Below are positions 2,553-25,424 of a stretch of 64,000 bases of DNA, piece after piece; position 1 is the stretch's first letter; every line of letters begins with the position of its first letter. The notes under the pieces were generated by a model that had not been told where the DNA came from, did no database searches, and was given only the letters and a program-made list of their open reading frames with translations. The position numbers were made by a program, and so were the translations under genes. Source of the DNA: Collinsella aerofaciens. Lineage in GTDB: Bacteria; Actinomycetota; Coriobacteriia; Coriobacteriales; Coriobacteriaceae. The stretch lies in assembly GCF_015555045.1 (NCBI RefSeq), contig NZ_JADNJQ010000001.1, positions 124,001 to 188,000 of the forward strand, written 5' to 3'.

Positions 2553-2559
2553 GCGGCGC

Positions 2560-2590: not shown

Positions 2591-2608
2591 CCCCCGAAAC
2601 CGGCCCCT

Positions 2609-2648: not shown

Positions 2649-2660
2649 ACTCCGCTTGTC

Positions 2661-2684
2661 GGACAAATCCGTACGGTTTTGTCC
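2661..2684. promoter_or_regulatory. Second palindrome/operator upstream of parA
   Basis: A 24-bp palindrome with one mismatched pair, centred on CCGTACGG and flanked by GGACAAA and TTTGTCC half-sites. The half-sites resemble those of the 15-bp palindromes found three times in the transfer operon. It lies 75-100 bp ahead of the parA start, where an autoregulatory ParA or ParB operator would be expected. Confidence 0.5.
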
Positions 2685-2757
2685 CGACGCTCCGAGACTC
2701 GGGGCGCGCCGGACCGGATGCGGCGAGGCGCGCCCCACGCTAGAGAGGACGCGACCC

Positions 2758-3522
2758 ATGCGCACGATAGCCATTTCCAACTACAAGGGCGGCGTCGGCA
2801 AGACGACGACCGCCGTCAACCTGGCGGCCATCTTCGCCGCCAGGGGCCTTCGGACCCTGCTCGTCGACCTCGACCCGCAGGCGTCTGCCACCGACTTCTT
2901 CGGCCTCTACGACCGCGCCGCCTCCGAGCGCCGCACCTCGGTCGAGCTGCTCTACGGCGGCGCGCCCGTGGAAGAGGTCGCTTACGCCGCCGGGGAGGGC
3001 CTCGACGTGGTGGCCTCGACCATCGACCTCGTCGACCAGAACGAGATGCTCCTGCGCGAGCAGCGCCTCAAGTTCGCCCTCGACGACGCCTCGGGCTCCT
3101 ACGACGTCTGCCTCATCGACTGCAGCCCCGTGATGCGCAGGCTCGCCTTCAACGCCTACCTCGCCGCAACGGAGGGCGGCATGGTCGTCATCCCCGTGAA
3201 GCTCGACTCCACCGTGATGCGCGGCACGGCGCTCACCGTGGAGGCGACGCGCTCCATCGCGGACGCTCTGCGCATGCCCACGCCCAGATGGAAGATACTG
3301 CGCACCTGCGTGCCCGGCCGCATGACCAACGCCGAGGCCACGGGCGCGGCCGTGCTCGACGGGTTCTTCCCGGGCGAGCAGTTCGAGACGGTCATCCACG
3401 CGAGCAGCAAGGTCTGCGAGGGCAGCTGGCAATGGAAGCCGGTGGCGGCCTTCGAGCCAGGGAGCCGCCCCGCACGCGACTACGAAGCTCTCGCCGACGA
3501 GGTGTCCCGTGAGCTCGCCTAG
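2758..3522 (+). CDS. parA: ParA-family partition ATPase
   Basis: A 254-residue Walker-type ATPase. The deviant Walker A KGGVGKTT is at residues 10-17, followed by LLVDLDPQASATDFF (A' motif) and CLIDCSPVMRRLAFNA (Walker B region). It uses ATP-driven dimerisation on nucleoid DNA to move or retain the element during an extrachromosomal phase. The ATG at 2758 follows a GAGAGGA-type RBS. The gene overlaps parB by 14 bases, indicating translational coupling. Two palindromes upstream probably serve as operator or partition site. Size and motifs are typical of plasmid and ICE ParA proteins without an N-terminal HTH. Confidence 0.9.
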   Translation: MRTIAISNYKGGVGKTTTAVNLAAIFAARGLRTLLVDLDPQASATDFFGLYDRAASERRTSVELLYGGAPVEEVAYAAGEGLDVVASTIDLVDQNEMLLREQRLKFALDDASGSYDVCLIDCSPVMRRLAFNAYLAATEGGMVVIPVKLDSTVMRGTALTVEATRSIADALRMPTPRWKILRTCVPGRMTNAEATGAAVLDGFFPGEQFETVIHASSKVCEGSWQWKPVAAFEPGSRPARDYEALADEVSRELA

Positions 3523-4465
3523 CCAGGTGGCCGCGGGCTTCACCATCACGGGGCTTCTCGACGGCGCGTCGCGCACCCGCGGGCGCTACCCGGTGTCCGA
3601 GATAGCGGTGGCCGACATCGCCGACCACCCGGCGAACGCCGCCTACTCCATGGACCCAACGGGGATAGCCGAGCTCGCCGAGTCCATACGCGAGGACGGC
3701 CTCACCGACCTGCCGCTCGTGCGCAAGGTCGGCGACGGCTCGTGGCAGATGGTCTCCGGGCACCGGCGCAAGGCCGCCTACGCGCTGCTCGCCAAGGACG
3801 ACCCCGCCTACGAGAAGATGCCCTGCCGCGTGATAGAGGGCATCGACGACGAGCGGGCGGTGACGCTGCTCCACGCCGCGAACTACTTCACCCGCGCGCT
3901 CACCGTGACCGAGCGCGCCGCAGCGACCGAGGCGCTCAGAGGCGACGCCGTGCGCCTGCGCTCCGAGGACCCGTCACTTTCCGGCATGCGCGTCGACGAC
4001 GTGAAGGCCGCCATCATTGAGCGACAGACGGGCCGCAAGGTCTCCGGCAAGACCATCGCGCGCGAGGAGAGGCTGGCCCGCCGTATCGCCGAGGACCTCT
4101 CGCCCGAGTGGGCCGCCGAGGCCGACCGCGGCAACCTCAGCGCCGAGGCGGTGCGCTCGCTCGCGGGCATGCCGAAGGAGCGCCAAGCGGAGATGCACGC
4201 CGCCATGGAGCCCTGGCGGCGCACCAAGCGGGAGCTCTCCGACTACGTGAGGAGCGAGAGCAAAACGCAGGCCGGCCCCGACGGGCGCATCGCGAAGGCC
4301 GCGAGGCTCGTCGCCGACTTCCTGGAGAGCCCGCCCGATAACCCGAGCGCGGCCGACCTCACACTGCTGCGCGAGATGGCGCTCATGACCGCCCCGTACG
4401 CGGATGCGGGCAGCGATGTCCGAAAGCGCCGCAGAAGGGCTTCAGGTTCGAAATCCAGCAAGTAG
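3509..4465 (+). CDS. parB: ParB-family centromere-binding protein
   Basis: A 318-residue protein starting at GTG 3509 inside the parA end. The N-terminal ParB/Srx-like domain shows AELAESIREDGL and the hallmark MVSGHRRKAAY (GHRR at 84-87). It is followed by a helix-turn-helix region around residues 150-210 (TGRKVSGKTIAREERLARRI) and a basic C-terminal tail (KRRRRASGSKSSK). It should bind a parS-like site and stimulate ParA. The candidate sites are the palindromes at 2609-2684 and possibly the 15-bp palindromes in the transfer genes. The HTH after the GHRR domain supports ParB rather than a stand-alone nuclease or sulfiredoxin. Confidence 0.88.
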   Translation: MSSPSQVAAGFTITGLLDGASRTRGRYPVSEIAVADIADHPANAAYSMDPTGIAELAESIREDGLTDLPLVRKVGDGSWQMVSGHRRKAAYALLAKDDPAYEKMPCRVIEGIDDERAVTLLHAANYFTRALTVTERAAATEALRGDAVRLRSEDPSLSGMRVDDVKAAIIERQTGRKVSGKTIAREERLARRIAEDLSPEWAAEADRGNLSAEAVRSLAGMPKERQAEMHAAMEPWRRTKRELSDYVRSESKTQAGPDGRIAKAARLVADFLESPPDNPSAADLTLLREMALMTAPYADAGSDVRKRRRRASGSKSSK

Positions 4466-4675: not shown

Positions 4676-5122
4676 ATGGAAGAGGAAGCCGGCGCCGCCA
4701 AGAGCAAGGAGCGCCGCGTCACGTTCCGCATGGAGGGAGGCGACTACGGCGCGCTCTGCGAGCGGTGCGAGCGCGCCGGCCTCAGCAAGTCGGAGTACCT
4801 GCGCTACCTCGTGCGCATACCGCTGTCGACGGAGGCCAACGCGGGAGACGAGCACCGCATACTCGTGGACCGCAGGGCCCTGTGGGCGATGTCGCGAGAG
4901 CTCACGAAGTGGGGCTACCACTACAACCAGGCCGTGCACGCGATGAACCTCATCAACTTCCACGCCCGCCACGGGCACGTCGACCGGGACCTCGTCGCGG
5001 ATAGCATCCCGACGATCGAGCGCGAGCTCGCCGACGTGAACGCCGCGGCCCGAGAGATGGCGGCGGAGCTCGGTCGCATCGGCGCCGACTCGCTCGTGGA
5101 GGGCTCGCCATGCCGATCCTGA
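4676..5122 (+). CDS. MobC-like relaxosome accessory protein
   Basis: A 148-residue protein after a strong GGAAAGGAATCC leader. The N-terminal part reads RRVTFRMEGGDYGALCERCERAGLSKSEYLRYLV, an RHH-like fold typical of MobC proteins. It continues with a helical region containing the conserved-looking LTKWGYHYNQAVHAMNLI and a helical tail (IPTIERELADVNAAAREMAAEL). MobC proteins bind oriT and help the relaxase open the strands. The gene overlaps the relaxase gene by 13 bases. The signature GxNxNQ appears here as GYHYNQ. Confidence 0.8.
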   Translation: MEEEAGAAKSKERRVTFRMEGGDYGALCERCERAGLSKSEYLRYLVRIPLSTEANAGDEHRILVDRRALWAMSRELTKWGYHYNQAVHAMNLINFHARHGHVDRDLVADSIPTIERELADVNAAAREMAAELGRIGADSLVEGSPCRS

Positions 5123-6381
5123 AGCCGATAAGCGGCCACGGCTCGACGGGCGGCATCCGCCGCTACCTCGAGAAGGGAGGCCGCGCCCTGGCGCGCGACC
5201 TGTTCAACCTGAGCTACGACGAGCGCGACGCCGGCGCGCTGGGGGAAGACGCCAAGGAGGCCTGCGCCTGGGACGCCGAGATGGACGCCACGCGCGCCGC
5301 GTTCGGCACGGACGCACCCTGGAGGGGCAAGCCCGCGCGCACGTTCAAGCACTTCGTGCTCTCGCCGGACCCCGGCGACGACATCGACCTGGTGACGCTG
5401 CGCGAGCTCGCGTGCTCGTGGGCGCTCAGGCACTTCGACGACCACGAGATCGCCATCGTCTACCACGACGACAACGCCCGCGGCATACCGCACGCGCACA
5501 TCGTCGTGAACAACGCCAACCTCCGCACCGGCTACCGCATGCAGACCCAGCACCCCGAGGACCTCAACCGAGACCTGCAGGACATGGCGCGCGAGCGCGG
5601 GCTGTCGGGGCTCTCCAACGACCGGGCGCCCGAATCTCCGTCGAAGGCGCGCGGGCGGGCAGGTGCGGGCGGGCCCAGGAGCCGCAGGAGCGTCTACCTG
5701 GGCCGGGCCGAGAAGGAGATCATGCGCTCGGGCGGCTACTCGTGGGTCGGCGACATCCGCGCCCGCGTCGCGCTCGCCAAGACCACGGCGCGCGACGAGG
5801 CGGAGTTCTTCGGCATCCTCGACGCCCTGGGCGTGCACGTCGCCGACAACTCGGCCAAGGCGCGGCGGGACGACTGGGTGTTCAGCCTGGCGGAGGAACC
5901 GTCCAAGAAGGTAACCGGCGAGCGCCTGGGGTTCGTCTACGGCAAGGAGATGCTGCGCCGGCGCTTCGAGCGCGAAGGCGCCTACCGCCCCACGGACGCG
6001 AGCGCCGCGCGGATCCGCGAGGCCGCCGAGCGAGCCCTCGAGCTCAACGACCTCTCGGAGCTGAGCAGGCTCTCCTCGGCGCTCGAGACGTGCGCGAAGT
6101 TCGACGTCGAGTCCATCGAGGAGTTCGGGCTCAGGATGGCGACGCTCGAGCGGCGCGGCCAGGCGGGCGGCGAGGGATACCGTCGCCTCGAGGCCGCCCG
6201 CGCCTACATGGCCGAGAACGGGCTCATGCCGCTCAAGACCCGCTACGGGGACGGTGAAGGGCGCGACGATGCCAGCGGCAATTCGCGCCAGTGCCACCGA
6301 GCGGACGAGCAACAGCGCATCCTCGCCGCCGAGCGGCAGCGGGCCCAGCAGGACCAGCGCAGGGAGAGGGGCCGGAGATGA
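5110..6381 (+). CDS. MOB-type relaxase
   Basis: A 423-residue relaxase. The N-terminal nuclease domain contains FKHFVLSPDP (His81), HDDNARGIPHAHIVVNN (119-134; His128 and His130 form the metal-binding pair with the upstream His), and an early SGHGSTGGIRRYLEK segment. The catalytic Tyr is not certain; Tyr19 is a candidate. The C-terminal half is helical and charged. It should nick oriT and pilot the transferred strand to the VirD4 coupling protein encoded on the opposite strand. Its stop codon overlaps the next start (ATGA). It lacks a helicase or primase domain, so unwinding must come from another protein. Confidence 0.85.
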   Translation: MPILKPISGHGSTGGIRRYLEKGGRALARDLFNLSYDERDAGALGEDAKEACAWDAEMDATRAAFGTDAPWRGKPARTFKHFVLSPDPGDDIDLVTLRELACSWALRHFDDHEIAIVYHDDNARGIPHAHIVVNNANLRTGYRMQTQHPEDLNRDLQDMARERGLSGLSNDRAPESPSKARGRAGAGGPRSRRSVYLGRAEKEIMRSGGYSWVGDIRARVALAKTTARDEAEFFGILDALGVHVADNSAKARRDDWVFSLAEEPSKKVTGERLGFVYGKEMLRRRFEREGAYRPTDASAARIREAAERALELNDLSELSRLSSALETCAKFDVESIEEFGLRMATLERRGQAGGEGYRRLEAARAYMAENGLMPLKTRYGDGEGRDDASGNSRQCHRADEQQRILAAERQRAQQDQRRERGRR

Positions 6382-7066: not shown

Positions 7067-7162
7067 CTAGTCCCGGTCGTCGTCGCCGGCTGCGCAGCAG
7101 GCGTAGGCCGTGAGCGTGAGGAGCCCCATGAGGAGCCCTATTCCGAAGGGCGCGAATCCCAT
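7067..7162 (-). CDS. Membrane miniprotein, 31 residues, 3' end of transfer operon
   Basis: This frame encodes MGFAPFGIGLLMGLLTLTAY followed by ACCAAGDDDRD. It is a single glycine-rich hydrophobic helix with a Cys pair and an acidic tail. A very strong RBS (AAGGAGGTGGAAGG) precedes the ATG at 7162. The gene overlaps the end of the sortase gene by 25 bases, which supports translation as part of the same operon. It faces the 34-residue miniprotein gene across the terminator. The family is unknown; a role at the cell envelope is possible. Confidence 0.55.
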   Translation of the reverse strand: MGFAPFGIGLLMGLLTLTAYACCAAGDDDRD

Positions 7163-7869
7163 CCTTCCACCTCCTTCGCGTAGACGACGGTGCGCGAGTT
7201 GCTCGTCTGGTAGCTGCACGTCACGAAGGCCCAGGCCTGCGCGACGTCCGAAGGCTCTTCCAGGACGACCTCGCACCGGGACAATTTGTCCCCGAGGTAG
7301 GCGGCGAGCTCCGCCGCGTCGGCGAAGTCGGTCCGCTTGCCCTCCGAGCTCGCGTCGACCACGTCGGCCGCGAAGACCTTGAGCTCGATCGCCTTCTCGC
7401 GGGTGTAGACCCGGATGGTGCGGTGCCCCTCGGCGAAGTCGCGCGACGAGTACTGCGCGAGCGGCGCGAACATGGTGCCGTCGGACATGTGGTGCCCGTA
7501 GACGATGACGAGCGGGCTCTCGGCACCCTGCGCGCACCCGGCATCTATGTAGGGAGCGCCCCACGCGGATCTTTCGCCGCCGGCGTCGTGCGTGAGGTAG
7601 AAGTCGGGCGATTCGGGCCGGCCCTGGACGATCGGGTAGTCGACGGTCGTGCCCGGCACGCGCACCCAAGCGACGACGGAGGCGGGAAGGGCGTCCCAGT
7701 CGATGCCGCCTCCCGTCTCTTGAGCCTCCATTGTCGCGTCCTCTTCCGCAGTAGGCACCTCGTGCACCTCGTAAGGGTTCCTCTCGGACAGCGGCAGGAC
7801 GGCGAGCGCCCCCATCGCCAGCAACGCCACGGCAATGGCGAGCGCCGTGGCGGCTTTCCCTTTGTTCAT
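7138..7869 (-). CDS. Class B sortase
   Basis: A 243-residue protein with an N-terminal signal anchor (about residues 7-27) and a sortase domain. The catalytic triad is visible: His126/127 in VIVYGHHMSD, Cys218 in FVTCSYQ and Arg226 in SNSRTVVY. The TLxTC-like FVTCSY motif, the inserted helix and the WVRVPGTTVDYPIVQG segment fit class B. It should join the LPxTG-like signal of the neighbouring VaFE protein to peptidoglycan or polymerise it. It is the penultimate gene of the transfer operon, so the element probably brings its own surface adhesin system to assist mating contact. A 15-bp palindrome lies within the gene at 7278-7292. Confidence 0.87.
   Translation of the reverse strand: MNKGKAATALAIAVALLAMGALAVLPLSERNPYEVHEVPTAEEDATMEAQETGGGIDWDALPASVVAWVRVPGTTVDYPIVQGRPESPDFYLTHDAGGERSAWGAPYIDAGCAQGAESPLVIVYGHHMSDGTMFAPLAQYSSRDFAEGHRTIRVYTREKAIELKVFAADVVDASSEGKRTDFADAAELAAYLGDKLSRCEVVLEEPSDVAQAWAFVTCSYQTSNSRTVVYAKEVEGWDSRPSE
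7278..7292. repeat. 15-bp palindrome GGGACAATTTGTCCC, copy 1
   Basis: An odd-length palindrome (7+1+7) inside the sortase gene. Identical sites occur at 14364-14378 and 16370-16384 in two other transfer genes. In each case the minus-strand protein reads DKLS at the site. Confidence 0.6.
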
Positions 7870-7941
7870 GTCCTCCCCCGTTCGCAGGGGAGGCCCCGGG
7901 CGAGCGCCCAGGGCCTCCGGTTCGGTATCGATGCGGCGCCG

Positions 7942-10671
7942 CTACTCTTCCGGCTCTTCGTCTGCCGCGTCCTTGCTTGCGCCGGCCGTCTTGCGCTTGC
8001 GGTACGCGAGCGCCCCGCCCGCACCCGCCGCAGCTGCCAGAGCGATGCCCGCGGCCACGGCGTAGCCGGTGCCGTCGGGGGCGTCGGCCCCGGTCTTGGC
8101 GTAGGGCTCCTCGGGGACCTCGGGCGTGCCGGGGTTGTCCACGACGACGCTCTGCTCGGCGGAGTCGATGTCCTCGTGGGCCGCCACGACGTTGCCGGCG
8201 GAGTCCAGGACCTTCTCGAAGACGACGAGCTCGTCTCCCTCGGCCAGGCCCTCGGTATCGAACTCGAAGGTCACCTCGACGGTGCCGGAGGGCGCCTCGG
8301 GCTCGAAGGGCGTGCGCGCGGTCACCTCGTTGCCGTCCTTGTCGAGGAACGGCTCTCCGGTGCCCTTGTCCATGAGCGTGCCCACGGCGATGTAGGTCTC
8401 GCCGGGGACGAGGCCCTTGTAGGCCACCGTGTCGATGACCTTGGCCTTGCCGGCCTCGATGACCTGGTCGCCGTCGGCGGCGTCGGCCGCCTGCGTGCCC
8501 ACCTCGACGGCGACGTGGACTGTCTGGCCCTCGTCGGAGAGGTCCGCGTGCGACGCCACCTCGGCCTCGTCCTTGCGTAGGCTCTCGAACGCGACCAGGT
8601 CGCGGCCGCCGAGCAGGCTCGCGTCGAAGGCGATCTCGACGTCCTGGCTGCCGGTCGAGAGCGCGGGGGCGAACTCGGCCTTGGCCTCCACGGGCACGCC
8701 CGAGGCGTCGGCCACGGGCTCGCCGGTCGCCTTGTCGACGAGGGTGGCCGAGAGCTCGTACTCCTCGCCGGCCTTCAGGCCCTCGTAGGCGACGGTGTCG
8801 ACGACCTTGGCCTCGGCGTCGGCCGAGACGTCCTTGTCGCCGTCCGCCCCGTCCTTTGCCGTGGTGGAGATGCGCGGGCCCTCCTGGTCGTCGAGGCCCA
8901 TCCACACGGCCTTCGCGACCGTCGAGTCGCGATCGACCCAGAAGCTCCTCGTGATGAGCTCGAGGCCCTCGTTGGCATCGCAGCGCAGCTCGGTCATGGT
9001 GTAGGCGCCGTACGGCAGGGCCGCCAGCGAGTCGTCGACCGGCGCCGAGGAGCCGTCCTCGCCGAGCGAGAACCAGATGCCGGCCTTCGGGTCCATGTCG
9101 GCGGCAGCAATCGGGCCCTCATGGCCAAGCAGGGCGTCGTTGGCGTTGGTGTCCCTCGAGTGCCTGTTCCAGCTGCTCGCGGTCGACGCGTCGCCGTTGC
9201 GGTCCGTGACCAGCACGTGAGTCTCGCCGGTGGCCGCGTTCTCGATGGCGAACGGGACCATGAGGCCGGCGTTGTCGGACTCGCTCTTCTTGGAGAGCTC
9301 GAGGTCGTTGCGCACCACCTGGTCGCGAAACTCGAGCGCGGCGCCGTCCGCGGAGGCGCTCACGACCTCGCCGCCGGTGCGGACCTCGAAGGTGCGGGGC
9401 TCGCCGTCGGTCAGCAGGTAGCTCCCGTTCGTCGCCGTCTCCCGCACGTCGTAGGTCCCGTACGGCAGTGCGTCGGCCGCGGTCTGCGCGGTGTAGGCGC
9501 CGGCCTCGTCGTTCCATGCGGTGGTCAGCGTGGCCACGGCCTCGCCCGGCTCGCGCCATTCGCCGTCAACGAGGACCTTGTGCGCCGAGCGGTTCGTGAC
9601 GGTGAACTCGATCCCGTCGAGGCCGGGGTGCTCGCCAGGCGCCTCCCTGTGGCCGCTGCCCGCGAGCGCCTCGGACGCCTGCAGCTCCTTGTCGGACTTG
9701 GTCACCTGCACGCCGCCGCGGAAGACCTCGTCGGTCACGGGGTCGCCCGTGAGGTCGCGCACCTCGTCGGCCTTCACGGCGAACGCGACGGAGGCGTCGC
9801 TGGCGTCGTAGCCCTCGGGCGCGCCGGACTCGACGATGCGGTAATTGCCCGCGGGGAGGGTGTCGGCGCCGGTCGCGGCGACGTGCGACCCGTCCTCGGG
9901 CGCGGTCTTTATCGTGGCGCATACCTCGCCGTCGGCGTAGTACTTGCCGCCGACCAGCACGTAGCGGCCGGTCTCGTTAACGACGGAGAAGCTCGCGCCG
10001 TCGAGCGAGGCGTCGCCCTGGGGCTCCGCGCCCGCCTCGGAGTCCGTTTTGGCGACCTTGACTCCGCCTGCGGACCAGCTGAAGCTCACGAGCGTCTGAG
10101 AGCCGCCGCCGGTCCTGACGCAGAACGCCTCGAACCCGGCGGATACCTTGCCGGCGCCCGCCTTCATCTTGGCGAAGGTCCCGCCGATCAGCTCGGATTT
10201 CGCCCAGGAGGCGAACTCGGCGCTCGTGCCGTGCGTGGCAGCCGACTCGGACCCAGAGTAGGCGTAGGCGATGAGCACATGGCTCGCCGCGGCGTACTTC
10301 GCGTCGTCCCAGCCGCCGCCGTCGTACCAGCTGCCCGGGAACATCGACGCGTCGAAGCCGGGAGAGCCGAACGAGTACCAGATCGCCGCTGTCACGTCGC
10401 CGCTCGGCACGGGGCTCGTCGAGTAGGAGCCCGCCGCGGGCGTCGGGGACGAGGGCTCGGCGCAGTAGGCGATGTTCCCGTCGGCGCTCATCCACGTGGT
10501 GGCGAAGCCGCCGTAGGGGATCTTGCCGCCGATGGACACGTCTACCGTGCTCGGCGCGGCGTAGGCGGGCGAGGCCGCCACGGAGGCGAGCAGAGCCCCC
10601 GCCGCCAGGATGAGCGCCATGGCGCATCGGAGGAGCTTTTCCTGCAGGGTGCAGTCTTTCGCTGCGTTCAT
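7942..10671 (-). CDS. VaFE-repeat, SpaA-like cell-wall-anchored surface protein
   Basis: A 909-residue protein with a Sec signal peptide (about 1-39, cleaved near AYA-AP). An N-terminal Cys-containing domain (NIAYCAEPSS, possibly thioester-type) is followed by several Cna-B/SpaA-like repeats. Two C-terminal repeats carry DLVAFESL and ELVVFEKV, the signature of VaFE-repeat proteins. The sorting signal is YAKTG (857-861), then a hydrophobic helix and a basic tail (RKRK). The deviation from LPxTG fits a dedicated partner, the class B sortase encoded 72 bases downstream. It is probably an isopeptide-stabilised adhesin or pilin used in mating-pair contact. The start at 10671 has GGGAGGCGG upstream. 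Confidence 0.87.
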   Translation of the reverse strand: MNAAKDCTLQEKLLRCAMALILAAGALLASVAASPAYAAPSTVDVSIGGKIPYGGFATTWMSADGNIAYCAEPSSPTPAAGSYSTSPVPSGDVTAAIWYSFGSPGFDASMFPGSWYDGGGWDDAKYAAASHVLIAYAYSGSESAATHGTSAEFASWAKSELIGGTFAKMKAGAGKVSAGFEAFCVRTGGGSQTLVSFSWSAGGVKVAKTDSEAGAEPQGDASLDGASFSVVNETGRYVLVGGKYYADGEVCATIKTAPEDGSHVAATGADTLPAGNYRIVESGAPEGYDASDASVAFAVKADEVRDLTGDPVTDEVFRGGVQVTKSDKELQASEALAGSGHREAPGEHPGLDGIEFTVTNRSAHKVLVDGEWREPGEAVATLTTAWNDEAGAYTAQTAADALPYGTYDVRETATNGSYLLTDGEPRTFEVRTGGEVVSASADGAALEFRDQVVRNDLELSKKSESDNAGLMVPFAIENAATGETHVLVTDRNGDASTASSWNRHSRDTNANDALLGHEGPIAAADMDPKAGIWFSLGEDGSSAPVDDSLAALPYGAYTMTELRCDANEGLELITRSFWVDRDSTVAKAVWMGLDDQEGPRISTTAKDGADGDKDVSADAEAKVVDTVAYEGLKAGEEYELSATLVDKATGEPVADASGVPVEAKAEFAPALSTGSQDVEIAFDASLLGGRDLVAFESLRKDEAEVASHADLSDEGQTVHVAVEVGTQAADAADGDQVIEAGKAKVIDTVAYKGLVPGETYIAVGTLMDKGTGEPFLDKDGNEVTARTPFEPEAPSGTVEVTFEFDTEGLAEGDELVVFEKVLDSAGNVVAAHEDIDSAEQSVVVDNPGTPEVPEEPYAKTGADAPDGTGYAVAAGIALAAAAGAGGALAYRKRKTAGASKDAADEEPEE

Positions 10672-14588: not shown

Positions 14589-17066
14589 CTATTCCTCCGC
14601 CTCTCGCGCCGCCCGGCGCATCTCGCGCTCGGCGACCTCTGCGGGCTTGGTGTTCCACAGGTCGTAGAGCGAGCCCCTCGGGAAGTCGTCGGTGATGGGC
14701 ACGCGGATCCCGGCGCTGATGAGCAGGCCCTCGCCGGGCTTGACGGCGTCGCCGATGTAGCCGCGCTCCGTGGCGGAGAGCTGGAGCATCTCCGCCCATG
14801 CGTCGAGGTCGGCGGTGGACTGCTTGTGCAGCAGGAAGAACTCGGAGTTGAGCACCATGTCGCGGGCCTCGGCGTTGGCCAGCATGTGGCTCGTGTTCTG
14901 GCTGATGCCGGTGCAGATGAGGCCGAACTTGCGCCCCTCGCGCCACAGGCGGGCGAAGTACTCGACCACCGTCGGATGCGCGAAGAGGCTCTGCACCTCG
15001 TCGATGTAGAGCCACGTGTAGTTGGGGCGCGGCGGCGTGACCATCACGCGGTTGCGCACCATCTCGAGCGCCGTGATCATGCCGAACACGCGCATGTTCT
15101 GGCCGAGGCCGTGCATGTCGATGTTGGTGATGCGGTTGTCGAGCGCCACGTTGCTCTGGCCGTTGAAGAAGGAGAACGCGCCCTTCACGTAGCGTTCGTA
15201 GCGCAGCGCGATGTCGGCGGCCTCGGGCTCGGGCTGAGCGAGCAGCGCCGCGTGGAAGTCGCCGAGCGTGGGCAGGCGGCCGTCCCTCGCGCACTCCCGG
15301 TACGCCTCGCCGACGCAGCGGGCGATGATCGAGCGGTCGCGCTCCGGCAGGCCCTCGCGGCCCTCGGCCATGAGCGCGCTCGAGAGCGCGAGCGCCGCGT
15401 CGGTCTTGTACGCGAGCTTGGCGGCGTCGGCGCGGTCCGCGACGTCGGCGGTGTCGAGGGGGTTGAGCACCGCCGAGCATCCCGGGGCGAGCTCGACGTT
15501 CGCGCCGCCGAGCGCGCCGACGAGGTTGCCGTACTCGCCGGCCGGGTCGAAGATCACGACCTCGTCCTCGGGGTGCGCGAGCACGGTGTTGGTTATCTCG
15601 CGCTTGACCGAGAAGCTCTTGCCCGAGCCGGGCTTGCCGCACACGAAGCCCATGGGGCTCGCCAGGCGCTTGCGGTCGCACAGCACCAGGTTCCCGCTCT
15701 CCTTGGACTGCCCGTAGTAGCCTCCGCCCGCCTCGTCGAGGCTCTGGCTGGCGAAGGGCATCTGCATGGCCACCTGCCCCGTGGTGAGGTAGCGGCTCAC
15801 GGTGACGTGGTTGTCCCCGAGCGGGAGCACCGAATTGAGCGCCTGGCGCTGGCGGAAGTGGAGCGGCTCGAGGCCGATCGTGCAGCCCTGCGCGACGCTC
15901 GTCACCTGCTGGACGCGGCGGTCGAGCTCCTCGAGGCTGTCGGCCCAGGTGTAGACGAGGCCCGTGTAGACGAACAGGCGCTCGGACTTGTTGCGCAGGA
16001 AGTCGAGCAGCTCCTCGGCCTCCTCCTTCGAGAAGCGCAGCTCGGGCGGCAGGATCTGGTAGTCGTAGCCCTTCTTCACGGCGCTCATCTGCTCGTCGAT
16101 GATCTCCTTGTCCATCCAGTCGATCTGGCGCTTCACGAGCGCGAGCGCCTCGCTCTGCGCGATGGGCTGCACGTGCAGCGTCACGTTGAGCGGCAGCGGC
16201 AGGTCGATGATGGAGGCGAGGTAGGTCTCCTCGATGACCGACCCGAAGCTGCGCACCGCGAGCACCGCGCCGTAGCGCCCGTCGCTGCGGAAGCAGTCGG
16301 ACCTGCCTTCGGGCTTGAAGTCGAGCGTGGAGGGCATGACGAAATCCTTCGTGCGCGCTCCCGACGTCGGGGACAATTTGTCCCAGGAGAACTCGAAGCG
16401 CGACCCCGGGCGCAGCTGCCCCTGCAGAAGCTCGAGCCTCTCGACGCCGTCGAGGGCGCGCGACGAGCAGCGTATGCGCGCGAGCGTCTGTTCCACGTCG
16501 CCCCGGATGCGCGCGAGCTTGGGCACCGCGGCGTCGACGTCGTCGGCGCCCACGGCGTAGGTCAGGTAGCGGTGGCGCACGAGGTTCGAGACGCCCTCGC
16601 GCATCTTGTCGTTGAGGATCCGGTTGTACTCTTCGGCGAGCCCGGCGGTGGCGCGCTCCCCGGGCTCGAAGAAGACCTTGCGGCCGACCTCGTCGGCGGG
16701 GATGGGCGCGTTCACTACCTGGAGCTGCACGTGGGAGTCCGCCGGGAAGTAGTTGAACAGCGAGCTCATCACGGTGAAGGCCGTCTCGCGCGCCTCCTTG
16801 CGCGCGGACTGGTAGCTGATGTCGGAGAACTCGACCGTCTGGCTGAACACCCCGGGCATCACCTGGGCGATTCCGTCCCTGTACATGGCGTCGTAGCCGA
16901 CGTAGGCGGCCATATCGCGCGAGCGGTCGCGCTCCCGGCGGCGCCTCTGCCGCTCGGCCTCCGCGCCCTTCGAGGCGTCCTTGCGCCCGCCCGTGCCGCC
17001 GAGGAGCAGCCCGAGGGTGCTCGGGCGCTTCGGCCTATTCTCCTTGTTGCTTCTTGCTCGGCTCAT
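14589..17066 (-). CDS. virB4: VirB4-family conjugation ATPase
   Basis: An 825-residue ATPase. The basic N-terminal 50 residues are followed by a VirB4 N-terminal domain (residues about 60-440). The RecA-like motor domain has Walker A GKPGSGKS near 476-484 and Walker B WLYIDEVQ near 684. A conserved ATPase segment LICTGISQN follows. It powers assembly of and transport through the type IV secretion channel. It overlaps the preceding PrgI gene by 32 bases. Size and order (PrgI, VirB4, peptidoglycan hydrolase) are standard for Gram-positive conjugative elements. A 15-bp palindrome lies within the gene at 16370. Confidence 0.92.
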   Translation of the reverse strand: MSRARSNKENRPKRPSTLGLLLGGTGGRKDASKGAEAERQRRRRERDRSRDMAAYVGYDAMYRDGIAQVMPGVFSQTVEFSDISYQSARKEARETAFTVMSSLFNYFPADSHVQLQVVNAPIPADEVGRKVFFEPGERATAGLAEEYNRILNDKMREGVSNLVRHRYLTYAVGADDVDAAVPKLARIRGDVEQTLARIRCSSRALDGVERLELLQGQLRPGSRFEFSWDKLSPTSGARTKDFVMPSTLDFKPEGRSDCFRSDGRYGAVLAVRSFGSVIEETYLASIIDLPLPLNVTLHVQPIAQSEALALVKRQIDWMDKEIIDEQMSAVKKGYDYQILPPELRFSKEEAEELLDFLRNKSERLFVYTGLVYTWADSLEELDRRVQQVTSVAQGCTIGLEPLHFRQRQALNSVLPLGDNHVTVSRYLTTGQVAMQMPFASQSLDEAGGGYYGQSKESGNLVLCDRKRLASPMGFVCGKPGSGKSFSVKREITNTVLAHPEDEVVIFDPAGEYGNLVGALGGANVELAPGCSAVLNPLDTADVADRADAAKLAYKTDAALALSSALMAEGREGLPERDRSIIARCVGEAYRECARDGRLPTLGDFHAALLAQPEPEAADIALRYERYVKGAFSFFNGQSNVALDNRITNIDMHGLGQNMRVFGMITALEMVRNRVMVTPPRPNYTWLYIDEVQSLFAHPTVVEYFARLWREGRKFGLICTGISQNTSHMLANAEARDMVLNSEFFLLHKQSTADLDAWAEMLQLSATERGYIGDAVKPGEGLLISAGIRVPITDDFPRGSLYDLWNTKPAEVAEREMRRAAREAEE
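16370..16384. repeat. 15-bp palindrome GGGACAATTTGTCCC, copy 3
   Basis: Identical to the copies at 7278 and 14364. It lies inside the virB4 gene. Confidence 0.6.
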
Positions 17067-17772: not shown

Positions 17773-19590
17773 TCACGAGTTGCCTTCCTTCTGCCTGCGG
17801 TACTCCGCGAAGTCGAACGGGCCGCGGCGCGCGGCCTCCTCGAGCAGGCGCGAGCGCGGGTGGCGCTCGAGCCGGTACTTCCGGTCCATGAGCGGCATGC
17901 ACCCGTTCACGAGCACGAGCGCGTCCTCGCGCGGCATGCGCGCCACCTCGGCGGGCTGTATGAGGTCGCGCTCGGAGATGCCGCGGTTCACGGTCCGGGT
18001 CCAGCCGGCGCCCCGCGAGTCGCTCTGCGTCTCGCTCGCCACCGTCTGCTTGCCGGCCATCTTGCTGATCTCCTCGTTGGTCTCGTTCGCCTTGCCACCC
18101 AGGTAGAGCAGCGTGTCGCAGGCGTTCACGATGGTCTCGGCGTTGTTGTCGCCGTAGGTCTCCTTCAGCTGCGAGAGAGACTGGGCGATCATCGAGACGG
18201 CGATGTTCCGGCTGCGGGTGACGGCGATGGTCCGCTCGAAGTCGGGTATGCGCCCGATGTTGGCGAACTCGTCGAAGACGAAGTGCACCGTCGTGGGCAG
18301 CGAGCCGCCGTGCGCCTCGAGCGCCTCGGCGCAAAGCGCGCTCACGGCCGTGTCCATGAGCAGGGCGAACAGGAAGTCGAAGGTCGAGTCGGTGTCGCTC
18401 ATCGACGCGAAGAGCGCGACCTTGGCGCCCTCGTCGCCCATGTGGGCGAGGTCGAGCTCGTCTTTGGAGGTGAGGTCGCGGACGGCACGGATGGACAGCG
18501 GCTTCAGGCGGACGTTGCAGCTCGAGAGCATCGACTTCATGGTGTCGCCGGCGGCGACGCGGAACTCGCGGTAGCTCGCGAGCGCGAAGTCGTCGGGCGG
18601 CGCCGGCTCGCGGACCTTGACCCACTCCCACGCGCCGTCCTCCTCGGCGAAGCCGCGCAGCGATCCGCCCTCCGCCGAGGCGCCGCCGCGCCTGACGTAG
18701 CGCTCGCCGGTCTCCAGCTCGCGGAACACCATGTCGAGCGGGCTCATGTAGCCCGGGTCGTCGCGGGCGTCGGCGAGCGAGAGCAGCGTGAGCAGCCCGT
18801 CGAGGTTTCGGTCGGCGGGCTCGCAGTGCATGACGAGGTAGGCCGTGAGCGCGGTGTAGACCAGGCGCTCGGCCTTCTCCCAGTAGGGGTCGCCCTTGTG
18901 GTCGGCCTCGCCCTCGGTGTTGGCGACGATGCCGCGGGCGAAGCGGATGACGCCCGCCTCGTCGCGTATGTAGGCTATGGGGTTGAAGCGCATGGAGCGC
19001 GTGAAGTCGATGGTGTCGAACGCGCGGATCTCGTAGCCGAGCTCCGCCAGCGCGCCGCCCATCTCGCGGATGAGCGTGCCCTTCGGGTCGGTCACGAAGA
19101 AGCTGGCGTTGGCCTGCAGGAGGTTCGGCTTGACGTAGTAGCGCGTCTTGCCGGTGCCGGGTCCTCCAACCACGAGCACGTTGTCGTTGGTGTCGGTGGA
19201 GAGGTCGAACCTGCGGCTCACGAGGCGGATGCGCGCGTTGTCGGTGAGGATGATGTTGTTGTCGGGGTCCTTGGGGTCGCCGAAGGGCGCGATGTCCTTG
19301 CGCGTGGCCCACCTGGAGCTCCCGTGCTCCTCGCCGTCGCGCCGGGCCCCCTTGGTCCCCAGTGAGCGGGCCCAGGCGAGGAGCGCGCCGCACGCGCAGG
19401 CGGTCCCGGCGCACAGGGGAAGCGCCTCCGCGGAGAAGACGCGCCCCGCGCGGAGCGCTGCCGGGATCGCCGCCATGGCGGCCTCCGGGTCGAGGATCGG
19501 GTTCGCGCCCGACGCCGCTATTGCCGCGGCCGCTGCATCTCCCATGGCGAACGCGGCTGCGGCCAGCGCGGCCGCCGCCTGCCACCTCAT
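17773..19590 (-). CDS. virD4: VirD4/TcpA-type coupling protein
   Basis: A 605-residue ATPase that links relaxase-bound DNA to the channel. Two N-terminal hydrophobic segments (1-25 and 55-75) precede Walker A VVGGPGTGKTRYY (about 142-150). FFVTDPKGTLIREMG, Walker B HFVFDEFANIGRIPDF (about 435-450) and ISMIAQ-like SMIAQSLSQL follow. The start at 19590 overlaps the PcfB gene by four bases (ATGA). The C-terminal region reads PREDALVLVNGCMPLMDRKY, typical of TraG/VirD4 family members in Bacillota and Coriobacteriia elements. Confidence 0.92.
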   Translation of the reverse strand: MRWQAAAALAAAAFAMGDAAAAAIAASGANPILDPEAAMAAIPAALRAGRVFSAEALPLCAGTACACGALLAWARSLGTKGARRDGEEHGSSRWATRKDIAPFGDPKDPDNNIILTDNARIRLVSRRFDLSTDTNDNVLVVGGPGTGKTRYYVKPNLLQANASFFVTDPKGTLIREMGGALAELGYEIRAFDTIDFTRSMRFNPIAYIRDEAGVIRFARGIVANTEGEADHKGDPYWEKAERLVYTALTAYLVMHCEPADRNLDGLLTLLSLADARDDPGYMSPLDMVFRELETGERYVRRGGASAEGGSLRGFAEEDGAWEWVKVREPAPPDDFALASYREFRVAAGDTMKSMLSSCNVRLKPLSIRAVRDLTSKDELDLAHMGDEGAKVALFASMSDTDSTFDFLFALLMDTAVSALCAEALEAHGGSLPTTVHFVFDEFANIGRIPDFERTIAVTRSRNIAVSMIAQSLSQLKETYGDNNAETIVNACDTLLYLGGKANETNEEISKMAGKQTVASETQSDSRGAGWTRTVNRGISERDLIQPAEVARMPREDALVLVNGCMPLMDRKYRLERHPRSRLLEEAARRGPFDFAEYRRQKEGNS

Positions 19591-20138
19591 CTCTCGGGCC
19601 CCTCGATCTGGCGCGGGCCGCGCTCCCGGCCGATGTCCTGGCTGTGGGCCCTCGACGCCTCGCGCGCACGCTCCGCGCGCTCCGCCAGCCGCTCGGGCTC
19701 CTGGCGCCTCTCGGCTATCTCGGAGAGCCGCTCCCTTGCGCGATCGGCGGCCTTGCCCGTCTCTTGCTCCAGCTGGCGGAAGGCCTCGTCGACCTCGGGG
19801 GCGTCCTCCACCTTGAAGAGCAGCCAGTCGCGGCCCTCGCCGGGGATGATGTGGTGCTCGACCGACGCGGCGCGCAGCTTGTCGGAGACGACCTCCTTGA
19901 TCGTCGCGTACTCGGGAAGCCCAGAGAGCTCCTCGAGGCTGAGCTTCGCGTAGGTCGGCGCGCCGTCGGCCGCGATGGCCTCGGCGCGCCCGCCGGCGAT
20001 GGTCCCGCGGATCCCTGCGAGGCGCTCTGAGAGCTCCCTCGCGCTGCGCGCCATTGCCTCGGCGCCGGCCTCCTGGCCGATTCTCAGCATCCAGTCGAGC
20101 AGCTTGCCGCCCGCCTCGTCCCCGTAGTCGCTCGCCAT
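19587..20138 (-). CDS. PcfB-family protein
   Basis: A 183-residue protein. The N-terminal region (DYGDEAGGKLLDWMLRIGQEAGAEAM) and central segment (KLSLEELSGLPEYATIKEVV, VEHHIIPGEGRDWLLFKVEDA) fit the PcfB/DUF3801 family, which accompanies VirD4 in Gram-positive conjugation operons. It may assist substrate recruitment. The C-terminal third is a charged helix (ERLAERAERAREASRAH). Overlap with virD4 by ATGA indicates coupling. Confidence 0.8.
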   Translation of the reverse strand: MASDYGDEAGGKLLDWMLRIGQEAGAEAMARSARELSERLAGIRGTIAGGRAEAIAADGAPTYAKLSLEELSGLPEYATIKEVVSDKLRAASVEHHIIPGEGRDWLLFKVEDAPEVDEAFRQLEQETGKAADRARERLSEIAERRQEPERLAERAERAREASRAHSQDIGRERGPRQIEGPER

Positions 20139-20195
20139 CCCGCGCCTCCCTTCCAGTCGAGATGAAAAAGGGGCGCCTTCGCGCCCCGGTCGTCC

Positions 20196-20729
20196 CTATT
20201 CGGCCCCGACGGCCCTCTCGCGCGCCATTGGGGCGCGGGCTTCCTGCCCGGCGTGCGCGCGGCTCGCCTCGCGGGCGGACGCGGCGCGCTGCGCCAGCGG
20301 CTCGGGAGCCTTCTCGTGCAGATGGGCCCACTCGCCGCTGCGGCACTGCTCCGGCGTCGCCTCGCACATGTCGCGCATGGCGCGCTCGAACCGCTCGGGC
20401 TCCTGGGCGATGGCGCCGAAGCTCCAGCTCTCGAAGCCGGTCCACGCGTCGCCGTCGCGCTTGAGCGTCCACCACTCGTCGCCGCCGTTCACCTGCTGGA
20501 TGAACGCGAGGTCGCGGTAGCAGAACCCCTGGCGTATGGCCCAGTTGCCCGAGCCCAGCGCCTCGCGGAGCCTGTCGACGCTCTCCGTGCGGGAGAACTC
20601 GTAGGGGTACTCCTCGAGGAACGGGTCGTCCTGCCAGTCGAAGCCGCCGACCTTGAGCCAGCCGTTCTCCTGGCACTTCTCCACGAGCTCTTCGTGCTCG
20701 CGGCCGGTTATCCTCTCGAAGCCGTCCAT
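20196..20729 (-). CDS. Hypothetical protein with aromatic-rich N-terminal domain
   Basis: A 177-residue protein starting at 20729 after CGGAGGGCC. The domain is rich in Trp and acidic residues (NGWLKVGGFDWQDDPFLEEYPYEF, GGDEWWTLKRDGDAWTGFESWSF), followed by a helical Ala/Arg/Glu tail (AQRAASAREASRAHAGQEARAP). The tail repeats the EASRAH motif of the PcfB-like protein, so the two may share an interaction mode. The family is not recognised. It is the first gene after the internal promoter at 20.85-20.9 kb and leads the coupling-protein block. Confidence 0.65.
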   Translation of the reverse strand: MDGFERITGREHEELVEKCQENGWLKVGGFDWQDDPFLEEYPYEFSRTESVDRLREALGSGNWAIRQGFCYRDLAFIQQVNGGDEWWTLKRDGDAWTGFESWSFGAIAQEPERFERAMRDMCEATPEQCRSGEWAHLHEKAPEPLAQRAASAREASRAHAGQEARAPMARERAVGAE

Positions 20730-20849
20730 GGGCCCTCCGTCTTTCGTTTGTTGCTTGGCGGGCGGCGTCCTCGCGATGGGGGCACGGTGCGAGTCGGAGC
20801 AGGCGTGCGTGCCGGCGCGTCGGCGCCGCCCAAGACGTGTATAGCGATT

Positions 20850-20901
20850 TCGATTGCGGCAGAGAGCAGGGCCGCCCGCGATGGGTCGAGCTGGGTCGAG
20901 C
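20850..20901 (-). promoter_or_regulatory. Internal promoter with tandem 10-bp repeats
   Basis: The 200-bp gap between the DnaC-like gene and the 177-residue gene holds the direct repeat GGGTCGAGCTGGGTCGAGC (20883-20901, plus-strand text). A TATACA-like box lies downstream on the minus strand. The same repeat with flanking GCCTCCAC recurs at 22921, ahead of the operon head, so one regulator may control both promoters. Confidence 0.45.
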
Positions 20902-20930
20902 CGTCCGCGCCTCCACGGGAAGCGCACAAG

Positions 20931-21719
20931 CTAGCTGCGCCGGCGCCTGTCCCTCTCGCCCAGGTAGACGGGCCTGCAGGTCTGGGAGATCCTGCTCGCG
21001 ATCGCCTCTGCCGTTACGCGCTCGCCGCGCCTGGCGAGCCTGTCCGCAAGCGCGCCGGGCGCGTAGTTCGACGTGACGATGGTCGGGCGCATGTCCTCGT
21101 AGCGCGCGTCGAGCACGCTGAACACGGTGCCGACGGACCACTCGGTCGCGTCCTCCTTGCCGAGGTCGTCGAGCACGAGGACGTCGCACTTGGCGTACCG
21201 CGCGACGGCCGCCTCGGTGCCGCCCTCGTCGAACGTGGCCTTCACGCGCTCGAGCATGCCCTTGGCCGTCGTGAAGGCGACGTCGTAGCCGGCCTCGGCG
21301 AACAGCCTGGCCATGGCGGAGGCGGCGTGCGTCTTTCCGGCGCCGACGCCCCCGTGTATGTAGAGCCCGGCGCCTCCGTTGCCGGCGAACGAGGCGATGT
21401 ACTCGGCGAACTCGGGGCGGTCGGCCTCGGCGGCCCAGTAGCGCCTGGGGATGCCCGCGCGCGCGAGCGCCTTCTCCCGGCGGGCGGCCTCCTCCTTGGC
21501 GGCGAGGGCCGCGCGCCTTCGCGCCTCGGCCTCCCGCTCGCTGGTTGCGCCCTCGCACGGGCAGGGGGCGCTGGAGACCCAGGTGACCCTGCCCGCCAGC
21601 GCTGCGCCGAGCGGTTCGAGGGCGGCGCCGCAGTGCGGGCACGCCCTCGGCTCCGGCTCGTCGAAGGAGAGCCCGGCGGCCCGGGCCTGCTCCAGGGTGA
21701 TGAGTCCCGCTCGGTCCAT
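20931..21719 (-). CDS. DnaC/IstB-like AAA+ ATPase
   Basis: A 262-residue protein with an N-terminal Cys cluster (Cys27, Cys30, Cys53, Cys55) that probably binds zinc. A helical linker follows, then an AAA+ core with Walker A IHGGVGAGKT (121-130), Walker B VLVLDDLG (180-187) and sensor-1 region TIVTSNY. It resembles DnaC/DnaI helicase loaders. With the winged-helix gene just upstream it forms a typical replication pair of an ICE that replicates after excision. The start at 21719 has AAGGAAGGGG upstream; a longer in-frame start at 21779 would overlap the previous gene. Confidence 0.82.
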   Translation of the reverse strand: MDRAGLITLEQARAAGLSFDEPEPRACPHCGAALEPLGAALAGRVTWVSSAPCPCEGATSEREAEARRRAALAAKEEAARREKALARAGIPRRYWAAEADRPEFAEYIASFAGNGGAGLYIHGGVGAGKTHAASAMARLFAEAGYDVAFTTAKGMLERVKATFDEGGTEAAVARYAKCDVLVLDDLGKEDATEWSVGTVFSVLDARYEDMRPTIVTSNYAPGALADRLARRGERVTAEAIASRISQTCRPVYLGERDRRRRS

Positions 21720-21733
21720 CGGGCGCCCCTTCC

Positions 21734-22249
21734 TTATCTTCTGAAGTCCTTGTTGTCCCTTTTGCTTATTGGGTGGCATATCGTCAGGGGTTTCCCTGTC
21801 ATTTCGTCAGGGGTTCGGGCTGCGAGCCCTGACGGTTCGTCATCCTTGTTCGCGGCGAACCCTGTCATTTCGTCACCCTTTCGCGCCGGGAACCCTGACG
21901 AATCGTCAGGGGTTGCCAACGCTCCGGGCGGCAGCCTCTCGCGCACGATGCGGTATCGCTTGGTGGCATGCCCGCGCGCCGGGGCGTGCACGCCGCACTC
22001 CTCGATGAGGCCCCGGTCGAGCAGGTCGCGGATGGCGCGGTGGACGCTGCGCTCCTGCACGTTGAGGAATCGGGCCAGGCCGCCCTTGCTCTCGAAGTAG
22101 CCGCACCCGGCGTCGCAGAAGCCGAAGATGCGCGCGTAGACGAGCAGGGGAAGGCCTGAGAGGCCGAGGTCCGCCATCATGAAGTGCCGTACCGTCGCGA
22201 ACTCGCGCGGGGAGGGGCCGTCGCGCCCCCTCGGGCCTGCGGCCGCCAT
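21734..22249 (-). CDS. Winged-helix replication-initiator-like protein with 11-residue repeats
   Basis: A 171-residue protein. The N-terminal domain (FATVRHFMMADLGLSGLPLL, YFESKGGLARFLNVQERSVH and IRDLLDRGLIEECG) is a helix-turn-helix or winged-helix module of the replication-initiator/DnaD type found on plasmids and ICEs. The C-terminal part has four 11-residue repeats, each containing a DE or DD pair and a following [MS]xG or SSG (PDDSSGF, GDEMTGF, DDEPSGL, PDEMTGK). The corresponding DNA is four exact-period 33-bp units. It precedes the DnaC-like gene by 14 bases. The N-terminal fold call is confident; the initiator role is inferred. Confidence 0.7.
   Translation of the reverse strand: MAAAGPRGRDGPSPREFATVRHFMMADLGLSGLPLLVYARIFGFCDAGCGYFESKGGLARFLNVQERSVHRAIRDLLDRGLIEECGVHAPARGHATKRYRIVRERLPPGALATPDDSSGFPARKGDEMTGFAANKDDEPSGLAARTPDEMTGKPLTICHPISKRDNKDFRR
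21794..21912. repeat. Four 33-bp direct repeats with embedded palindromes (iteron-like)
   Basis: Units begin at 21794, 21827, 21860 and 21893, exactly 33 bp apart, each starting CCCTG[TA]C and continuing to TCGTCA. The last unit is a complete palindrome, CCCTGACGAATCGTCAGGG. A right half-unit (ATCGTCAGGGG) lies at about 21779-21790. They sit inside the 3' part of the winged-helix gene. Iterons within or beside the initiator gene are a known layout for replication origins. Confidence 0.7.
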
Positions 22250-22253
22250 GGCG

Positions 22254-22502
22254 CTAGCCCCTTCTTGGCGAGCCGACGACGCTGTTGCGCTCGACCCATG
22301 CGACGAGCTCGTCGTGCAGCACGATGCCGTCGCGCGTCTTGCCGCCGATGTAGCGGATCGGGAACGGGTCGTCGCGGTCCTTGGCGAGCCGGTACATGGC
22401 GTCGCGGCTGATGCGCAGCATCGCGCACGCCTCGTCGGCGCCGAATATCGCGTTTGTCGATGCGATGAGCCTCACCTGGCTCCTGCTAGTGCTCTTGGTC
22501 AT
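22254..22502 (-). CDS. Helix-turn-helix excisionase-like protein
   Basis: An 82-residue protein with a MerR/AlpA-type HTH: ADEACAMLRISRDAMYRLAKD (HTH), then PFPIRYIGGKTRDGIVLHDEL and VAWVE. These proteins act as excisionases or directionality factors, or as regulators. It starts two genes upstream of the DnaC-like gene, and the next start lies four bases after its stop. A second excisionase-type gene lies upstream. No integrase is present within the window for it to serve. Confidence 0.75.
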   Translation of the reverse strand: MTKSTSRSQVRLIASTNAIFGADEACAMLRISRDAMYRLAKDRDDPFPIRYIGGKTRDGIVLHDELVAWVERNSVVGSPRRG

Positions 22503-22580
22503 GGTCGTCCTCGAGCTCCTTTCGTCTCGAGGCTCCCTCGCGTGCCCGGCCGCGGGCGGCTCCCGGGGCGGTCGCCGCCG

Positions 22581-22799
22581 TCATTTCCTGCCGCTCCTCG
22601 ACTCGATGTAGGCGTCCACTGACGCCCTCGAAACCAGGAGCTTCCTGCCGAGCCTGTACGAGTCGATCTCTCCCGACCAGATGAGGTCGTACGCCTTGTT
22701 TCGGCTCGCCCTCATGTACTGCTGCATCTCGATCACCGTCATCCATTCGTCGCGGCCCTGGTTGTTCTCGGGCGCGGCGCATTCGGCTGTGCGTGCCAT
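22581..22799 (-). CDS. Second excisionase-family HTH protein
   Basis: A 72-residue protein; the ATG at 22799 follows GGAGGAAC. The sequence DEWMTVIEMQQYMRASRNKAYDLIWSGEIDSYRLGRKLLVS is a standard excisionase DNA-binding fold (MerR-like with wing). It ends RASVDAYIESRSGRK. It is the first gene of the minus-strand operon, directly downstream of the operator region at 22.9 kb, so it may act as directionality factor, regulator, or both. Confidence 0.78.
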   Translation of the reverse strand: MARTAECAAPENNQGRDEWMTVIEMQQYMRASRNKAYDLIWSGEIDSYRLGRKLLVSRASVDAYIESRSGRK

Positions 22800-22920
22800 G
22801 GTTCCTCCAATCTTCCCGTGCGGCACCGTGCGGGCACACCGCGCGGCACAGTGTCCCTTTTCGTCTGCGCGACGATTGAACCGCCTGCTGGCGCATCGCG
22901 CGCATGACGGGAACGGAGAC

Positions 22921-22955
22921 GGGTCGAGGTGGGTCGAGCTGGTCGGGCCTCCACG
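22921..22955 (-). promoter_or_regulatory. Operon-head operator with tandem repeats
   Basis: GGGTCGAGGTGGGTCGAGCT starts at 22921, followed by a GCCTCCAC block. This is the same arrangement as at 20883 with GCCTCCAC. It lies about 120-150 bp upstream of the first transfer-operon gene on the minus strand. A degenerate relative (TTCGATCTAGGTCAAGCCGG) occurs near 24143. Confidence 0.45.
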
Positions 22956-24461: not shown

Positions 24462-25424
24462 CTATTCTACCAACCCGAGCGATTCTGTCAACCTGCGAAG
24501 GAACTCGAGCGCGGAGCGAGCTGCGGCGTCGGGCCCCTTGTCGGGCAGCGCCTCGGTTTCGCCGTCGGCCCTGGCGAACATCTCGGCGAGCTCGGATGCG
24601 GCGCGCGAGCGCGAGGAGCCCTCGGGTACCAAGCCGGAGTGCGCCACGAGCACGGTCGCGACCTCCTGCATGGCCGTATTCCCCATCCACTTCCTCCTGG
24701 TCGCCTTGGGAATCCCCACGGCGGCGACCCTTCGGGAGACGCCGCTGGACGCCGAGCCCCGGGCGGCGCCCCTCTCGGCGAAGCAGTTGATCAGGCACGA
24801 GCCGTGCGCGGCGCAGTTGCGGACGGACTTCACGCGCTTGAGGTCGTAGTGGGAGGCCTCGAGGCGCCTGTCGCCCCATCGCCTGGCGCAGAAGCGCACG
24901 AAGTCGATGAGGGTGCCGAACGAGGTGAGCTCAAGGAAGGCCCAGGCAGGCATGTCGCCGGAGTACTTCGCGTAGAGGCTCGAGCTGTAGGGGCTGCGGC
25001 CGCTCATCTTGAGCTCGCGCAGGCGGTACTCCCTGTTTGCAGTGGTAAGCGATGCCATGTAGTCGGCCACGATGGCGTAGCCGTCCTCTCCACGGTCCTC
25101 CATCTCGCGAAGCAGTGTCACCTTCTGGAAGTGCTCGATGTCGAGCGTCATGCCGAGCAGGGCGTGGCGCAGCTCCTGGTCGAGCGCCGCGAGCAGGCGC
25201 AGCTGGCCGAAGTCGAGGTCTACGTAGCGGCCGTCGCGCGGGCCTCCCTCGTATTTCGAGAAGAGTTTGCGGTAGGATGCGAGCTTGAAGAAGTTGCACT
25301 TGTCGCGCAGGTAGTCCGCGGCCTCTTCCTCGGAACACAGTTCGAAGGCTACGCCCTTCTGCTTGAGGTGCTCTATCTGCCGCTCGATCGTGAGGATCGG
25401 CTTCCTATCGTGGGGTTCGGCCAT
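24462..25424 (-). CDS. Abi_2-family abortive-infection protein with HEPN-type RNase motif
   Basis: A 320-residue protein. Family features are the N-terminal TIERQIEHLKQKGVAF, CNFFKLASYRKLF (residues 43-55), LDIEHFQKVTLL (near 95) and RNCAAHGSC with Arg202 and His207, the R-x4-H motif of HEPN ribonucleases. Abi_2 proteins (AbiD/AbiF group) block phage growth, probably by RNA cleavage. After residue 235 the tail is basic and of low conservation. A TAGAAT -10 box and AGGAG lie upstream of the start at 25424. It is cargo beside the conjugative element; the tandem structured units lie directly downstream. Confidence 0.85.
   Translation of the reverse strand: MAEPHDRKPILTIERQIEHLKQKGVAFELCSEEEAADYLRDKCNFFKLASYRKLFSKYEGGPRDGRYVDLDFGQLRLLAALDQELRHALLGMTLDIEHFQKVTLLREMEDRGEDGYAIVADYMASLTTANREYRLRELKMSGRSPYSSSLYAKYSGDMPAWAFLELTSFGTLIDFVRFCARRWGDRRLEASHYDLKRVKSVRNCAAHGSCLINCFAERGAARGSASSGVSRRVAAVGIPKATRRKWMGNTAMQEVATVLVAHSGLVPEGSSRSRAASELAEMFARADGETEALPDKGPDAAARSALEFLRRLTESLGLVE

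Follow-up and report, generated by a model that had tools for sequence, protein, structure and literature searches.

The window, that is, the whole 64,000-nucleotide stretch of Collinsella aerofaciens DNA that was analysed, contains on its minus strand a gene (22249-21734) for a 171-residue protein, in which a winged-helix domain (residues 21-101) is followed by a repeat-encoded tail that is disordered in the predicted model. The next gene (20931-21719, minus strand, with an inferred ATG start at 21719) encodes an IstB/DnaA-type AAA+ protein that matches PHROG 50 with an E-value of 6.6e-49, which agrees with the DnaC-like helicase loader proposed for this place in the initial annotation. Upstream of the winged-helix gene, profile matches identify a small HTH_17 protein (22254-22502) and an excisionase-type HTH_17 protein (22581-22826), both on the minus strand. 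The surrounding element is conjugative: the VirD4/TraG coupling protein (17773-19581, minus strand) and the MobA/VirD2-type relaxase (5110-6381, plus strand) are clear assignments, and a probable VirB4-like ATPase (14592-17066) is read from a weak DUF87/HerA match. A NikA-like protein (4676-5122) and ParA/ParB-like genes (2656-4465) precede the relaxase. The nearest tyrosine recombinase is found at C11:113656, about 10 kb to the left of the window, and no serine recombinase was found near the element.

In a profile search, the winged-helix protein matched PHROG 270, "replication initiation protein", with an E-value of 6.7e-6, and more weakly the O-like families PHROG 678 (E 0.0015) and PHROG 391 (E 0.0087). 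No Pfam family scored above the cut-off, and Pfam RepA_N (PF06970) gave no match up to an E-value of 0.1. The fold search with the predicted model returned a generic winged helix, with MarR-like winged helices common among the matches and no single family standing out; the RepA_N structures 4pql, 4pt7 and 5kbj were found at Z 7.4-8.0, tied with generic unrelated winged helices. It should be mentioned that the E-values of this search are too weak for naming the family of the initiator, be it RepA_N or DnaD. The recognition helix is predicted to comprise residues 66-78.

Five dyads of the form TGAC-N5-GTCA are located at the 3' end of the winged-helix gene on the minus strand, with spacings of 33, 33, 33 and 23 bp. 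Dyad 1 (21896-21908, TGACGATTCGTCA) is exact and forms the core of a perfect palindrome at 21893-21911, and dyad 3 (21830-21842, TGACGAACCGTCA) is also exact. Dyads 2 (21863-21875) and 4 (21797-21809), both TGACGAAATGACA, have one imperfect half-site each, and dyad 5 (21774-21786, TGACGATATGCCA) is degenerate with one imperfect half, so that 1 and 3 are the strong ones among the five and one half is imperfect in each of the other three. The four units of 33-bp period described in the initial annotation start exactly at 21794, 21827, 21860 and 21893, as it had stated, and the period does equal 11 codons, the minus strand encoding four 11-residue repeats (TPDDSSGFPAR, KGDEMTGFAAN, KDDEPSGLAAR, TPDEMTG). 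Its assignment of a palindrome to each unit stands in part: a complete 9+1+9 palindrome is present in the 21893 unit only, in the 21827 unit the 5-bp arms match perfectly, and one half is imperfect in each of the units at 21794 and 21860, the first of which pairs at 6 of 9 arm positions. The half unit said to precede them is the degenerate fifth dyad in a shifted frame. This dyad is translated as LTICHP, in a different reading frame from dyads 1-4, because its 23-bp spacing from dyad 4 is not a multiple of three. Exact TGACGNNNCGTCA sites occur in the window at the array only, no further dyad copies beyond chance were found elsewhere in the window, for example at a promoter, and an Rfam search gave no match.

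The palindromes had been considered stronger than coding needs. Within the window this holds weakly. A 9/9 dyad arises by chance from synonymous codons with p=0.018 when codon usage is followed and p=0.053 when the gene's own codons are permuted, and the array shows no excess of near-dyads over synonymous-codon draws. Codon resampling confined to the window is too weak to decide; the proof comes from comparison, and the claim is borne out by the relatives.

For this comparison, 126 loci were reduced to 83 distinct members and then to 38 non-redundant members at ≤75% domain identity, a sample that is not exhaustive and in which the half-site class of each member is an automatic count. In the 300 nt 3' of the winged helix, 24 of the 38 members have two or more identical dyads, compared to 1.4% of 7,600 dinucleotide shuffles, and 16 of the 38 have three or more, compared to none of the 7,600. 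Three identical dyads never occurred in the control regions, namely the winged-helix domain and the next gene. The half-sites among the members are TGAC, TGAA, GGAC, CGAC, GGAA, GTAC and TGCA. Two reading frames are used in 17 of the 28 arrays and all three in another 3, while four arrays are wholly non-coding, lying past the stop codon and ahead of the next gene, and one is half non-coding. One 13-mer, GGACAAAATGTCC, occurs in all three reading frames at locus L027, and at L095, L106 and L110 the TGA stop codon of the initiator gene doubles as the start of the first dyad. Coding or not, 19 of the 28 arrays end with a spacing of 22-23 bp, and in 15 the penultimate spacing is 33-34 bp. The comparison of homologous genes suggested in the initial annotation has thus been carried out, and the palindromes are kept as DNA while frame and codons change, or when they lie outside the gene. 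Protein repeats conserved without palindromes were not seen among the relatives, and the converse case was. As a separate observation, L094 and L118 have unusually long or nested palindromes 3' of the winged helix, such as CCATGGCAAGGGGGGTACGCCCGCGTACCCCCCTTGCCATGG in L118.

Over the short term, the 16 copies that are nearly identical differ at 2 of 40 dyad-arm positions, compared to 22 of 104 positions in the centres (7/25) and spacers (15/79) combined. A single change in L041 and L054 completes dyad 4 to TGTCA and makes it a perfect dyad. Exactly one 33-bp unit is missing from L043 and from L044, as a change in iteron copy number would produce.

The half-sites also vary together with the protein. 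Every column of the domain was tested against the fourth base of the half-site, and residue 71 (window numbering), which falls in the predicted recognition helix, gave a Fisher probability of 1.4e-6, the next best column giving 0.005. Arginine at this position goes with C in 16 of 16 members, and other residues (Asp, Ser, Ala, Lys) go with A in 8 of 8. On the best tree the residue and the base change five times each, matching in all rows; well-supported branches carry only two independent pairs of changes, and the covariation is hence suggestive rather than proven. It points to the winged-helix gene's own product as the probable binder of the dyads.

Directly beyond the last dyad, on the side of the loader gene, lies a purine-rich stretch (21731-21770, minus strand) that is the least stable 40-mer of positions 19587-22830 and a candidate unwinding element. 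In 23 of 24 members the flank after the last dyad ranks among the 2% of the locus with the lowest stability; its mean GC content is 0.39, compared to 0.67 in the loader gene (p 1e-7). A CCC(A/G)ATA-rich and then purine-rich pattern is kept even in members with non-coding arrays, and part of the purine-rich flank doubles as the ribosome-binding region of the loader. A DnaC-like loader gene comes directly after the initiator gene in 29 of the 38 relatives; the 9 without a loader match are distant members, and in several of them the ORFs are long or the DNA that was fetched stops too early for a loader to be recognised.

Considering the dyads kept as DNA, their 33-23 bp geometry, the low-stability flank and the accompanying loader, the candidate origin proposed in the initial annotation is supported. 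We propose, with a probability of about 0.82, that the repeats are the iterons of an intragenic theta origin of the lambda/SPP1 type on the conjugative element. What was computed directly is the array with its geometry and its conservation at the DNA level, the unstable flank, the loader neighbour and the protein-DNA covariation, and from these we infer binding, melting, loading and replication at the array. The winged-helix protein would use its recognition helix to bind the TGAC-N5-GTCA dyads, probably with one dimer per dyad, and the bound array would strain the adjoining AT- or purine-rich stretch, leading to its melting. The DnaC-like product of the next gene could then load the host replicative helicase at the melted stretch. 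Once excised, the conjugative element would replicate in a plasmid-like manner, which agrees with the presence of ParA/ParB-like genes on it. The 11-residue protein repeats would be a by-product of an array that happens to be in frame, with extra units merely lengthening the disordered tail. The more specific designation as an ICE replication origin stays conditional, since none of the window genes that were scanned was recognised as an integrase and replication is itself a proposal.

The main rival explanation, to which we assign a rather low likelihood, is that the array is purely an operator, the sites of the winged-helix protein serving to regulate transcription of the loader and transfer genes, or to stop or slow the polymerase as it passes through the operon. 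The loader gene does follow closely on the array, the fold matches commonly include MarR-like winged helices, and terminator-like stems are present in the array, though on the plus strand, opposing the genes. However, five spaced sites in a fixed 33-23 bp geometry with an unstable stretch on the loader side resemble an origin, the protein matches phage replication initiators, and a promoter-like site was looked for at the array and none was found. Operator and origin roles could coexist in the same array.

Very little credence is given to selection acting on the protein, in which an acidic, flexible tail of 11-residue repeats would be favoured, for example to hold the loader, and the palindromes would follow from the codons. 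The single frame shared by the four units in the window would suit this explanation, and the codon resampling is compatible with it, but the comparison of sequences already contradicts it: in relatives the DNA is retained in a different frame or beyond the gene while the peptide repeat is lost, relatives with the tail peptide kept and the half-sites decayed were not seen, and the tail is disordered in the predicted model. It is similarly improbable that the array is a site for transfer or recombination of the element, such as oriT, an att site or a resolution site. Inverted repeats are typical of such sites and the element is conjugative, but about 15 kb separate the array from the relaxase gene, the array goes with the loader gene, and the half-site tracks the recognition helix of the protein that the local winged-helix gene encodes.

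The proposed intragenic origin can be compared to several known systems. In lambda-type gene O, inverted-repeat iterons lie within the initiator gene beside an AT-rich unwinding tract, with the loader gene next, and extra iterons make the protein longer (PMC7466680). The Collinsella locus is like this lambda/lambdoid origin (ori-lambda) in its intragenic dyads, the unstable tract beside them and the loader that follows. It differs in DNA motif and host, the similarity to O-like profiles is weak, the protein ends shortly past the array without a further domain, and the array lies outside the gene in some relatives. The oriL of Bacillus phage SPP1 is located within the initiator gene 38 and consists of repeats and an AT-rich unwinding element, with the loader gene 39 next (PMC6316719). 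The order of an intragenic origin and then a helicase loader is shared with the SPP1 gene 38-39-40 region; there, however, the helicase gene 40 follows, whereas here the loader is of the DnaC-type AAA+ kind and no adjacent helicase gene was found. The winged-helix initiators of RepA_N replicons (pSK41, pTZ2162, PLE) bind semi-palindromic iterons (PMC7145576). A winged-helix protein with putative iterons is likewise present here and RepA_N structures are among the fold matches, but the Pfam RepA_N match is absent and the fold match ties with unrelated winged helices. The integrative element SGI1 has an iteron origin of its own beside rep, from which its excised form replicates (PMC7433901), much as is proposed for the present element; the SGI1 origin, in contrast, lies downstream of rep and has a DnaA box, and its initiator is of the RepA_C kind.

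This kind of origin is already known. A survey of replication modules in actinobacterial ICEs reported none in Coriobacteridae (PMC3218068), and no description of such an origin for coriobacterial elements or for this initiator family was found in the literature searched. Going further, we see about an even chance that the members constitute an undescribed replicon family of Coriobacteriia conjugative elements with a frame-independent origin cassette and a specificity switch at residue 71. In this reading, the cassette would consist of the 33-23 bp dyads with the unwinding tract and would drift in and out of the initiator coding sequence, and specificity would lie largely in one residue, Arg71 going with C and other residues with A. 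The family provides a natural experiment, in which a DNA signal is separable from the protein repeat encoded by the same DNA, and it yields a one-residue specificity hypothesis. It also gives a candidate origin that is testable at the sequence level for conjugative elements moving between Coriobacteriia and some Actinomycetes (Arcanobacterium, Varibaculum). If working, this origin could be a vector replicon for hard-to-manipulate gut bacteria.

Near-identical copies of the gene (88-97% best-segment identity, host names taken from record titles) are found in Collinsella, Enorma, Olsenella, Thermophilibacter, Senegalimassilia, Gordonibacter, Paraeggerthella, Slackia, an uncultured Adlercreutzia, Arcanobacterium haemolyticum and Varibaculum vaginae. 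The copies in the records titled with the last two names (L032 and L035), which belong to another class, are 96-97% identical, suggesting recent transfer. Distant members are spread across the class (73 of 396 genomes) and are nearly absent from the wider phylum sample. No relatives were found in viral contigs or on plasmids, and one was found among phages, in the gut phage record MT836321 (L127). At positions 2501-3200 of this unannotated human gut phage contig there are a related initiator, four TGCA-type dyads and an AT-rich run, with a DnaB-like helicase gene downstream of the dyads; these features were judged by eye, and the layout fits the pattern of dyads, AT-rich run and replication gene.

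The same contig contains, 44 kb away, a second conjugative element that has a relaxase, a coupling protein and an initiator (L002, C11:101911-102378) of its own, and its dyads are of the TGAA type in place of TGAC. The idea that co-resident elements need different half-sites against incompatibility was considered and is unsupported, with 11 of 17 genomes observed and 11.4 expected. Other features of the region were noted in passing. On the minus strand at 7138-10671 the element encodes a sortase together with a large surface protein, probably an adhesin, whose domains are of the thioester, T-Q ester and SpaA-like types. An Abi_2-like gene of the abortive-infection type (24462-25424, minus strand) lies between the element and PTS genes. 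Finally, GGGTCGAGNTGGGTCGAG occurs exactly twice in the 64 kb, on the plus strand at 20883-20900 and 22921-22938, where 0.01 occurrences are expected by chance; the two copies flank the initiator and loader genes, one on each side, and are perhaps a regulator or partition site.
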